Below, piece by piece: positions 58,895-63,049 of a stretch of DNA of 64,000 bases (its first letter is position 1; every line of letters starts with the position of its first letter). Where the stretch lies: NCBI GenBank assembly GCA_029551395.1, contig JAKPFN010000022.1, forward strand, positions 1-64,000. The letters are read 5' to 3'. Below the pieces are notes generated by a model. It saw only the letters and a program-made list of their open reading frames with translations. It ran no database searches and was not told where the DNA came from. The translations under genes were made by a program, and so were the position numbers. The stretch comes from Armatimonadota bacterium (lineage in GTDB: Bacteria > Armatimonadota > UBA5829 > DTLH01).

Positions 58895-58932
58895 AATTAA
58901 GGCCGGTACGATATGATGTACCGGCCTTAATT
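58895..58932. terminator. Bidirectional terminator
   Basis: aattaaggccggtac-gatatgat-gtaccggccttaatt perfect inverted repeat between convergent genes. Confidence 0.9.
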
Positions 58933-58950
58933 TAACTTAACTATAGATAT

Positions 58951-59541
58951 CTATTCAGGAGATACCGCTACCTTCACTCTTGCTGGCCGAATTACCTTAT
59001 TGTGTTGAGTGTAACCGGTTTGAAGCTCTTCAACTATAGTATTTTCTGGATACTCGTTCGTCTCCACTCGCATAACAGCTTCATGAATCGCAGGGTCGAA
59101 CTCCTGCCCCACTGCCGGTATTGGCTGGACACCTTCCTGCTCCATAAGCTGTTTTAACTGCCGAAGAGTCAGCTTCACACCTTCCACAAGACTCTCGAAA
59201 CTATTAGTCCGTTCTGCAGCCTCGAGTGCACGCTCAAAATTATCTACAACAGGCAGAATTCTGCTCACAAGGTCTTGAGTAGCAAGTAACCTGGATTGCT
59301 TGGATTCTTCTTGCTGTCTTCTGCGGTAATTTGCAAAATCTGCCAGAGCACGAAGATGCTGATCATGCTCGTCATCAGCACGCCGTCTGGCTTTATCAAG
59401 TTCAGACCTTAACCTTTCGATCTCATCCTGCAGTTCATCTACCGTAAGTGGCAATGCTTCAGTCTCCGGTTCCAGTCCTCCCTCATCATCCTGCATATCA
59501 ACCTCCAGTGGTTCCGTATCTTGCCTGTTTTGATCTACCAT
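58951..59541 (-). CDS. grpE: Nucleotide exchange factor GrpE
   Basis: LRALADFANYRRRQQEESK; ILPVVDNFERALEAAE; GVQPIPAVGQEFDPAIHEAVMRVE. Confidence 0.96.
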   Translation of the reverse strand: MVDQNRQDTEPLEVDMQDDEGGLEPETEALPLTVDELQDEIERLRSELDKARRRADDEHDQHLRALADFANYRRRQQEESKQSRLLATQDLVSRILPVVDNFERALEAAERTNSFESLVEGVKLTLRQLKQLMEQEGVQPIPAVGQEFDPAIHEAVMRVETNEYPENTIVEELQTGYTQHNKVIRPARVKVAVSPE

Positions 59542-59567: not shown

Positions 59568-61127
59568 CTATTCAGATCTAGGTGCAGATCCATCATCACG
59601 CTTACGGATTATTACATTAATCCTGAGTACTGCCTCTGCTACTTCAGCCGCTGCTTTTATCGCATATAATTTCACCTTTGCAGGATCTGTTACGCCCAGG
59701 TTAAACATATCGGCAACATCTCCGGTATCACAATCGATGGCCAGCGAAGCAGAATCCTGCTGAGATTGAGCTGCTGCAGCATCTTCCACTTTCTCGAGTG
59801 GATTGAACCCTGCATTAGCCACAATCTGCATCAGAGGGCGTTTAAGTGCTTCAGCAACGCAATCAACTCCATAGGCAGCCATTCCACGAACGCCCTGCCT
59901 CAGATTGCTAACTTTGCGAGCTGCTGCCAACTCGACTGCACCACCACCAGCCACAACTCCGGACAGCAATGCTGCTTGAACCGCGGATGTAGCATCTTTC
60001 GCTATCCGGTCACGTTCTTCTTTGACTTCCTGTGTTGATGCACCAACCAGAATCGTTGCAGCGGGCTTTCCTGCACCACCTACTACCCGGATATGCCCCA
60101 ATTGCTCATCTTCGTATACCCGGTCGCACCTTCCCAGAAACTTGGCAAGCTCATCTGGTTCTTTCTTCAAACCGGACCGCTTGATAGGTCTAGCTCCAGT
60201 ATGGTCAATCAGTCTGGAAATATCTCTTGATGAAAGTCTCCGTACCGCGAGTATTCCAGCATCAGTGAATAATTCCTCTGCTGAATCGTCTATTGCTTTT
60301 GCAGCAACGACAAAGCGTACGCCAAGCTCGACGATTTTCTTCAAATTCTCTCGAAACTCAGCTTGAAGTGACATGTATCGAGCAAAACCGGCTTCAGTCG
60401 ATAATGCATCTTCTTCTATATGCTCAGGTTCGATGGCATCATCAACGACCAGCACCTTTACATCCTCGACAGACCTTGGCATCTGCCTGCTCATCCGCTC
60501 TTTATCGATTATAAGACCTGCAAATACCTCATTTTTTGCGCCTTCTTTGGAAACAACGGCATCAGCTAGTCTAAATGCAGGGTCTGCAAGTTTATCCAGT
60601 CCTACTAACTTAGCGGCTTTAACGGACAGTTCAGCTAAATCGTTCTGTCCACGAGCAGATACTAAAGCTGTCTGCATTAGGAGAGGATTATCGAAATCGC
60701 TAATCTGTTTGGCCTGCTCTGTAATGTAAGATACGGCTTCGGAGACTCCAAGACGAATTCCTTCAATAACTTTCGTTACAGGAACTCCTCTGACAACCTG
60801 ATTAGTACCTTCTGAGATTAATGCGCTGGCAAGTACGGTTGCTGTAGTTGTTCCATCTCCTACTTCATCATCTTGAGCTTTTGCCGTATTGATCAACATA
60901 CGTGAAGCTGGATGAGTCACATCGATCTTATCCAGAATAGCACTGCCATCATTAGTGATAATGACATCCCCAAATCGGTCCACCAGCATACAATTAAGTC
61001 CTTTTGGGCCGATTGTGCCTTCTACAGCAGCAGCAACAGTACGAATAGCACCAGCATTTGCTAAAAGCGCCGCTAACCTCTCATCAACATCTGATCCTTT
61101 GTTAATCTGTCTGGACTGGTCTGACAT
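59568..61127 (-). CDS. Archaeal-like (thermosome/TCP-1-type, group III) chaperonin
   Basis: VEGTIGPKGLNCMLVDRFGDVIITNDGSAILDKIDVTHPASRMLINTAKAQDDEVGDGTTTATVLASAL: thermosome-type signature, not GroEL-type; GVVAGGGAVELAAARKV. Confidence 0.93.
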   Translation of the reverse strand: MSDQSRQINKGSDVDERLAALLANAGAIRTVAAAVEGTIGPKGLNCMLVDRFGDVIITNDGSAILDKIDVTHPASRMLINTAKAQDDEVGDGTTTATVLASALISEGTNQVVRGVPVTKVIEGIRLGVSEAVSYITEQAKQISDFDNPLLMQTALVSARGQNDLAELSVKAAKLVGLDKLADPAFRLADAVVSKEGAKNEVFAGLIIDKERMSRQMPRSVEDVKVLVVDDAIEPEHIEEDALSTEAGFARYMSLQAEFRENLKKIVELGVRFVVAAKAIDDSAEELFTDAGILAVRRLSSRDISRLIDHTGARPIKRSGLKKEPDELAKFLGRCDRVYEDEQLGHIRVVGGAGKPAATILVGASTQEVKEERDRIAKDATSAVQAALLSGVVAGGGAVELAAARKVSNLRQGVRGMAAYGVDCVAEALKRPLMQIVANAGFNPLEKVEDAAAAQSQQDSASLAIDCDTGDVADMFNLGVTDPAKVKLYAIKAAAEVAEAVLRINVIIRKRDDGSAPRSE

Positions 61128-61227
61128 TTTCCCTCTTTACAAACGAAGTGGGTGCGGCATATCGTAGATCAAGCAACAGCGCTTACTGCAGCCTGATATC
61201 CGACATCCAGCACCCAACAATTTTACT

Positions 61228-62286
61228 TTAACTCAAACTAAGCGCAGTAAGAAGTTCACTCAAATTATTTGCCATCGCTTCAACAGCAGCCACTGCGTGG
61301 CGGTAATTCATCCTGGTAGGGCCAATTACTCCAATTGTTCCAGCAGTCCTGTCATTGATACGATACCTGGCCCCAACAAAACTCGTATCCTGCATCTCAT
61401 GATATGGATTCTCAGAACCTATTATGACCATAACATCAGGTCCAAGCACTGCTTTAGAGAGCATGAGATACAACTTAGTCCGGTGTTCAAGTGCTGCCAA
61501 AATCGTTTCAAGCTTGTTGAGGTCTTTGAACTCTGGCTGCTTTAGAATGCAATTAGTTCCTTCTATGTGTACGCTTGCCTCAGAAGTTCCTAACTCATTT
61601 ATTACCTGGTCTATCGCAGTTGATGCAGCTTGATACAGCTCAGACTGCATTAGATTGTCAGTACTGCCAGACTTGTGTTCCGAGTTTCTAATGTCATTTA
61701 CATTCTTACCTATGAACTGCTTTGCAAGAACCGAAGAAGTACGCATCACTTCAACATTCAGAACATGGTGTCCGGCGTCAATAATCCTATGCTCTACTTG
61801 CCCGCTTGAAAGCACCACAACCAGTAAAAGCTTTCGCTCACCGACCTTTGATAGCCCGATATGGCTGATAAGGTTTTCTGTTGAGATTGGCTGTGTAGCA
61901 ACGGATGTATAACAGGTAAGACCGGTGAGTATCCTGCAGGTTTGACTGACAATCCTCTCAATCTCAGTTGCTATAGTAGAAAGCTTTTCTTTTGCAGTAA
62001 GGACCTGCCGTTTTGGGAGATACGGAGCAGGCATTAGCCGGTCTACGTAAAACCTGTATCCTAAGTCTGATGGCACTCGTCCGGCAGATGTGTGAGGCTG
62101 CCAGAGATATCCAAGCTCAGCCATTTCTGCCATTTCATTCCGTATGGTAGCAGATCTGACATCAAAGCCGTAATTCTGAACAAGCACTTCCGACCCGACT
62201 GGCTCAGCCGTATGGATATGCTCGTGTACTATCGCTTTTAATATTTTCTGCTTCCGTTCATCGAGTTGTTCCTTGTGCGTACGCAT
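61228..62286 (-). CDS. hrcA: Heat-inducible transcription repressor HrcA
   Basis: LDERKQKILKAIVHEHIHTAEPVGSEVLVQNYGFDVRSATIRNEMAEMAELGYLWQPHTSAGRVPSDLGYRFYVD. Confidence 0.97.
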   Translation of the reverse strand: MRTHKEQLDERKQKILKAIVHEHIHTAEPVGSEVLVQNYGFDVRSATIRNEMAEMAELGYLWQPHTSAGRVPSDLGYRFYVDRLMPAPYLPKRQVLTAKEKLSTIATEIERIVSQTCRILTGLTCYTSVATQPISTENLISHIGLSKVGERKLLLVVVLSSGQVEHRIIDAGHHVLNVEVMRTSSVLAKQFIGKNVNDIRNSEHKSGSTDNLMQSELYQAASTAIDQVINELGTSEASVHIEGTNCILKQPEFKDLNKLETILAALEHRTKLYLMLSKAVLGPDVMVIIGSENPYHEMQDTSFVGARYRINDRTAGTIGVIGPTRMNYRHAVAAVEAMANNLSELLTALSLS

Positions 62287-62446
62287 ATCAGGAATTCCTC
62301 TTACTACCTGTTAAATAACCAGTTTCCCAACTCAATCCTACCATCCAGTCGAGCTTATGTCAAGGTTCATGGCCTTGCCTAACCTGCAAGTATGTGCAAA
62401 TTTTGAACTATTAAGGACACTAAAACAGCAGGAATAACAATAATCA

Positions 62447-63049
62447 ATGTTGAACCATAACGTAACTCGAATCAATTATAGGATGGCGCTTATGGAAGAA
62501 CCTATCAATCAGAAGAAGAAAGGTCTGCTTGATCGGCCGGTCAGATTGTTCTGGCCGTTTACGCTTTTTATTGTCTTTGCAGTAGTTATATGCATTGGCT
62601 GGTTTTACCATATCAACAAAATCGCTAATCTGAGATACACTGCAAAGCATGTGATGAAAGAAGAAATAAGGCAGAAAGCTGAAGCACTTGGACAAACAAT
62701 CGCTGTTACATCCCGCGATGACATCAGAAACTCGGATTTTAACAAATTACAGGAATACTTCATTGACATTGCCAAGAACAATCCTGACATAGAGTATCTT
62801 GTAGTTATGAAGCTAAATGGAGAAGCAGTTGTACACACTGATACCAAATTCAGAGGTAAAAAGCTTCAGGACAGTCTGGCTCAAGCGGCACTAGATGCCG
62901 ATGACGTTGTCGTGTCTGAAGTAGATGATAAATCTTTGTATGACGTAGCTGTGCCGGTTATGGGCTTTACGTCTAAAGCTGCAGTTATCCGGGTTGGAGC
63001 ATCATTTGAACGATCAAAGCAAGCTTTTGAGGCTAAACCAAAGAATTAG
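62447..63049 (+). CDS. Single-TM protein with probable extracytoplasmic Cache/PAS-like sensor domain
   Basis: FWPFTLFIVFAVVICIGWFYHI TM then YFIDIAKNNPDIEYLVVMKLNGEAVVHTDTKFRGKKL; likely start 62483 or 62492. Confidence 0.65.
   Translation: MLNHNVTRINYRMALMEEPINQKKKGLLDRPVRLFWPFTLFIVFAVVICIGWFYHINKIANLRYTAKHVMKEEIRQKAEALGQTIAVTSRDDIRNSDFNKLQEYFIDIAKNNPDIEYLVVMKLNGEAVVHTDTKFRGKKLQDSLAQAALDADDVVVSEVDDKSLYDVAVPVMGFTSKAAVIRVGASFERSKQAFEAKPKN

Follow-up and report, generated by a model that had tools for sequence, protein, structure and literature searches.

A group III chaperonin gene between hrcA and grpE in an Armatimonadota genome

Group III chaperonins have been little studied, and it is debated whether they are a remnant of the ancestral chaperonin or came from archaea by an old transfer. 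Both the family and its linkage to the dnaK operon are already published. Thus, by 2017, 195 group III CPN sequences were known, nearly all of them in the dnaK operon (PMC5635000, PMC5220055). The marks of the group that we use for comparison are the nucleotide-sensing loop, residue Arg155 of the Carboxydothermus hydrogenoformans protein (Ch-CPN), and the length and residues of the lid (PMC5635000). Here, we analyse a chaperonin gene, cpn, from a MAG of the phylum Armatimonadota (3.58 Mb, 98.7% complete, contamination estimated at 2.8%). The whole stretch of DNA analysed is 64 kb in length and is referred to as the window. To the published picture we add how the gene is distributed across Armatimonadota, that dnaK has been lost from the operon, and that CIRCE is missing.

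Family assignment of the chaperonin

The cpn gene occupies positions 59568 to 61127 on the minus strand. The reading frame is open, begins with ATG and encodes 519 amino acids, including the sequence quoted in the first-pass annotation. The Pfam model Cpn60_TCP1 matched residues 31–509 (E = 2e-112). The NCBIfam thermosome models scored 304, 302 and 297 bits, against cut-offs of 671, 400 and 450 respectively. The GroEL equivalog model scored 159 bits, with a cut-off of 582. Scores of around 300 bits for thermosome models, versus 159 for GroEL, agree with the earlier description of a thermosome-type rather than a GroEL-type chaperonin. That no thermosome or GroEL model of NCBIfam exceeded its cut-off is expected of a third chaperonin group.

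Comparison with solved structures points the same way. The nearest solved protein, at 625 bits, is 9RWQ, a group III ancestor; the name in its PDB record says ACII, but PMC12696368 assigns it to ACIII. Ch-CPN (5X9U) comes second with 441 bits, ahead of ACII (277 bits) and of natural thermosomes, which score about 224 or less. An AlphaFold model of Cpn, built from ten homologues, had a pLDDT of 86 and a pTM of 0.83. Its top fold matches were 5X9V and then 5X9U, both of group III, with TM scores of 0.85–0.90. The first-pass annotation had proposed looking for a lid in such a model; lid helices are present at residues 239–242 and 245–267.

In an alignment of Cpn with proteins from all three groups, the six-residue nucleotide-sensing loop is missing from Cpn, leaving a gap against all group II rows. 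Residue R159 aligns with Arg155 of Ch-CPN. The built-in lid is three residues shorter than that of group II, and L242, F248, Y251 and F258 match the conserved hydrophobic lid residues Leu237, Phe243, Tyr246 and Phe253. Both catalytic aspartates (D60 and D378) are kept, as are the GDGTTT and GGG motifs. Hence, Cpn is a genuine and complete group III (bacterial thermosome-like) chaperonin. Assignment to group I was rejected; the GroEL score is far below cut-off and a lid is present. Assignment to group II was also rejected, given scores below all three thermosome cut-offs and the missing nucleotide-sensing loop.

A phylogeny against groups I, II and III had also been suggested, and a maximum-likelihood tree of 50 rows was built. 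All rows outside groups I and II were Ch-CPN and 37 Armatimonadota proteins. Groups I and II each formed one side of a branch with 100/100 support, and Cpn stayed together with the other Armatimonadota proteins and Ch-CPN outside both. The closest partner of Cpn was the protein of a relative in the same family (G227; 100/100). Ch-CPN is on a long branch. The tree contains few group III sequences from beyond Armatimonadota and so gives no placement within group III.

The hrcA-cpn-grpE locus and its control

The genes either side of cpn are hrcA, encoding the heat-shock repressor (positions 61228 to 62286, 352 amino acids; TIGR00331, 286 bits with a cut-off of 197), and grpE, encoding the Hsp70 nucleotide exchange factor (positions 58951 to 59541, 196 amino acids; PF01025, 173 bits). 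All three genes are on the minus strand, separated by 100 bp (hrcA to cpn) and 26 bp (cpn to grpE). The gene order given by the first-pass annotation is therefore real. No second copy of hrcA or grpE was found in the genome.

Upstream of hrcA there is a predicted σ70-type promoter (positions 62335 to 62363, minus strand) with the arrangement TTGACA-17-TAGGAT and a TG extension. The layout recurs; most of the relatives examined have TTGAC-N17/18-TGnTA before hrcA. In single upstream regions the promoter beats nearly all mononucleotide shuffles. Scanning the whole 3.9 kb region gave no excess over shuffles, so the case for the promoter rests on position and conservation. Downstream of grpE, between convergent genes, is a predicted terminator (positions 58897 to 58930, minus strand). 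This is a perfect 13-bp inverted repeat with an 8-nt loop (fold z = −7.4), and is missing from the output of a simple terminator scan. A divergent gene starts upstream of hrcA at position 62447. Because of the inverted repeat after grpE, and this divergent gene, the locus reads as a three-gene operon, and we infer that hrcA, cpn and grpE are probably co-transcribed. Between hrcA and cpn, the 100-nt gap is predicted to hold a long RNA hairpin that lies immediately 5′ of the cpn ribosome-binding site (positions 61149 to 61216, minus strand; fold z = −4.9). The hairpin is strong but occurs once in the genome and is not conserved in relatives. Hence, we rejected a conserved RNA element at this position. 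The hairpin could stabilise a processed cpn-grpE message.

The first-pass annotation asked whether groEL and groES occur elsewhere in the genome, and saw in the locus an in-operon test of regulation by HrcA. Two groESL operons, with two GroELs, are present. A perfect match to the CIRCE consensus, TTAGCACTC-N9-GAGTGCTAA, precedes each groES-groEL pair, which accounts for both perfect CIRCE elements in the genome. Conversely, the window holds no CIRCE, even with 3 mismatches allowed; with none near hrcA-cpn-grpE, the idea of an in-operon test was not supported. One genome thus combines groESL operons marked by CIRCE with a cpn operon free of it, which suggests that its two types of chaperonin may be under different regulation. 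In the class as a whole, a CIRCE with up to 1 mismatch was found in 21 of 28 genomes. Where a CIRCE and groEL were both listed, the site was about 350–500 bp upstream of groEL and never on the cpn stretch (coordinates compared by eye). A CIRCE core with 1 mismatch was also seen at G000:C5:30026-30048 (L028), beside a glycosyltransferase-like ORF and away from chaperone genes; it may be a chance match. Control through HspR (HAIR) sites was rejected, since the two matches in the window lie at a distance and do not exceed chance.

Could the operon still be under HrcA autoregulation, via a degenerate operator, with Cpn a classical HrcA-controlled heat-shock protein? The hrcA gene is upstream of cpn and in the same direction. 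Furthermore, two genomes of the same class (G220 and G221; loci L095 and L094) have a CIRCE-like site, with 4 and 3 mismatches respectively, exactly over the promoter before hrcA. These are possibly decaying or altered HrcA operators, and the operon may thus ancestrally have been under HrcA control. However, in the source genome the closest CIRCE match within the 330 bp upstream of hrcA differs at 8 of 18 positions, no better than shuffles, whereas the groESL sites are perfect. The clean window, and the class-wide position of CIRCE upstream of groEL, also weigh against autoregulation, which we consider unlikely. The absence of CIRCE would still allow a divergent HrcA site, or other heat-shock control, at the operon.

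Distribution in Armatimonadota and origin

A group III gene was found in 40 of 291 Armatimonadota genomes (30 of 194 good ones), representing 16 of the 45 families in the phylum. In the class of the source genome it is present in 19 of 28 genomes. GroEL was found in 193 of the 194 good genomes; hence the group III protein is an addition, not a replacement. All group III carriers at least 90% complete also have GroEL, and replacement was rejected. The three carriers with no strong GroEL match (G202, G274 and G289) are 79–86% complete. One internal stop was seen in each of the group III matches of G227, G234, G235 and G203; these may reflect errors in the sequence, the end of a frame or copies in decay.

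The first-pass annotation had raised the possibility of an organism outside the Carboxydothermus-type set. Armatimonadota is indeed outside the Carboxydothermus lineage. Conversely, the location near genes of the dnaK operon is not odd; the Hsp70 operon is the published norm for group III CPN and so the position of cpn is expected. Residence within the dnaK operon itself, the usual published state with one exception, and a matter of location rather than a protein feature, was not found in the source genome, dnaK being elsewhere. In a small literature search that covered the text of articles, we found no report of a group III chaperonin in Armatimonadota.

Across the 40 carriers, cpn is mostly beside grpE, hrcA or both. 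The order hrcA-cpn-grpE occurs in about 20, and cpn-grpE with no adjacent hrcA in about 11. Three carriers have hrcA-cpn with no grpE in sight, one of these at a contig end. Only in G192 and G193 is dnaK next to grpE. In G206, G207 and G208, which belong to one genus (family f30, genus g124), cpn follows murI- and rph-like genes (named by eye), and no hrcA or grpE was found near cpn within the fetched stretch (loci L006, L007 and L059–L061). This genus is an exception to the published Hsp70-operon rule, and its genomes are natural tests of the need for an Hsp70 link. At 19 loci, pairwise distances were correlated between Cpn and GrpE (rho 0.62) and between Cpn and HrcA (rho 0.40); the pairs are not independent and P values are not meaningful. 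The correlations are consistent with joint inheritance of Cpn with GrpE and HrcA. The gene has been retained in many Armatimonadota lineages, in most cases next to grpE and in two next to grpE-dnaK, which provides a deeper sample for the question of origin.

Two further explanations concern the gene itself. A thermosome-like sequence, in a bacterial bin with a 2.8% contamination estimate, might be a recent archaeal acquisition or an assembly contaminant, and the third-position GC content of cpn is somewhat lower than in its neighbours. Against this, overall GC content is 46.9% for cpn and 45.5% for the window, bacterial hrcA and grpE flank the gene, and a 79% identical orthologue (L004) is found in the same family. 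In the tree, a branch of 2.75 with 100/100 support sets the side containing Cpn apart from group II. Given these data, and the spread through 40 genomes of the phylum, archaeal contamination was rejected and a foreign origin of this kind is extremely improbable. Alternatively, Cpn might be a paralogue that has degenerated or lost its activity and is retained through the structure of the operon. The gene is absent from several genomes of the order, and the group III sequences of G227, G235, G234 and G203 have internal stops or truncations, although these may be sequence errors. However, cpn is intact, with both catalytic aspartates and both motifs, and 11 orthologues have many invariant columns in common at catalytic and motif sites. 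Loss of activity is thus very improbable.

No match was found for plasmid carriage of a group III cpn. Carriage by viruses was rejected; among the best 80 of 366 confirmed places, viral loci hold only group II-like proteins about 26–32% identical to Cpn. The viral contigs in question (L098–L177), which encode thermosome-like group II chaperonins, are probably archaeal viruses or host fragments.

Proposed role and comparison with known systems

The source genome encodes two dnaKs, both on contigs other than that of cpn. One set has the order dnaK-hsp20-dnaJ-hspR-like, where the HspR-like gene is of the MerR type. The other has the order rpoZ-like-dnaK-dnaJ, followed by prmA- and rsmE-like ORFs. 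Some of these genes were named by eye. No gene of the prefoldin_2 family was found in the genome.

We propose, with good but not full confidence, that this genuine group III chaperonin is made constitutively, as a folding chamber that works independently of GroES and is expressed together with HrcA and GrpE, and that HrcA represses groESL. By homology to the Carboxydothermus protein, Cpn would form a double ring of eight-membered rings (a hexadecamer) and bind unfolded protein. Its own lid would close on ATP binding, so that neither GroES nor prefoldin would be needed. Transcription of hrcA-cpn-grpE would begin at the predicted constitutive-type σ70 promoter and end at the terminator after grpE. 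Such transcription would tie a standing supply of Cpn to the only HrcA and only GrpE of the cell. Acting through CIRCE, HrcA would repress both groESL operons. Clients may be handed over to Cpn from the DnaK/GrpE cycle.

GroE modulates HrcA in Bacillus. The conserved hrcA-cpn neighbourhood, together with the missing CIRCE at the cpn operon, raises the speculative and rather improbable idea that HrcA in Armatimonadota is kept folded by the group III chaperonin encoded alongside it, not by GroEL, and reports the free capacity of that chaperonin. If so, HrcA activity, and hence groESL repression, would be a second-tier chaperone sensor of free group III capacity.

Of the known systems, Ch-CPN (5X9U/5X9V; PMC5635000) resembles Cpn over the whole length of the sequence, as top fold match, in the missing nucleotide-sensing loop, in the Arg155 equivalent and lid residues, and in Hsp70-operon company. 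The differences are a sequence identity of about 43%, the position of dnaK outside the operon here, a host from Armatimonadota, and a search for CIRCE that here found none. Group II chaperonins (the archaeal thermosome and CCT) have in common with Cpn the built-in lid, overall fold and catalytic aspartates. Unlike Cpn, they possess the nucleotide-sensing loop of six residues and a lid longer by three, and they form a separate 100/100 branch. GroEL/GroES of group I is alike in fold, ATP site and bacterial host, with two copies in the same genome. Conversely, GroEL has no lid, needs GroES and is CIRCE-marked in the source genome. Finally, whereas dnaK and dnaJ are away from grpE in most group III loci here, the order of hrcA and grpE is as in hrcA-grpE-dnaK-dnaJ Hsp70 operons, and dnaK still follows in G192 and G193.
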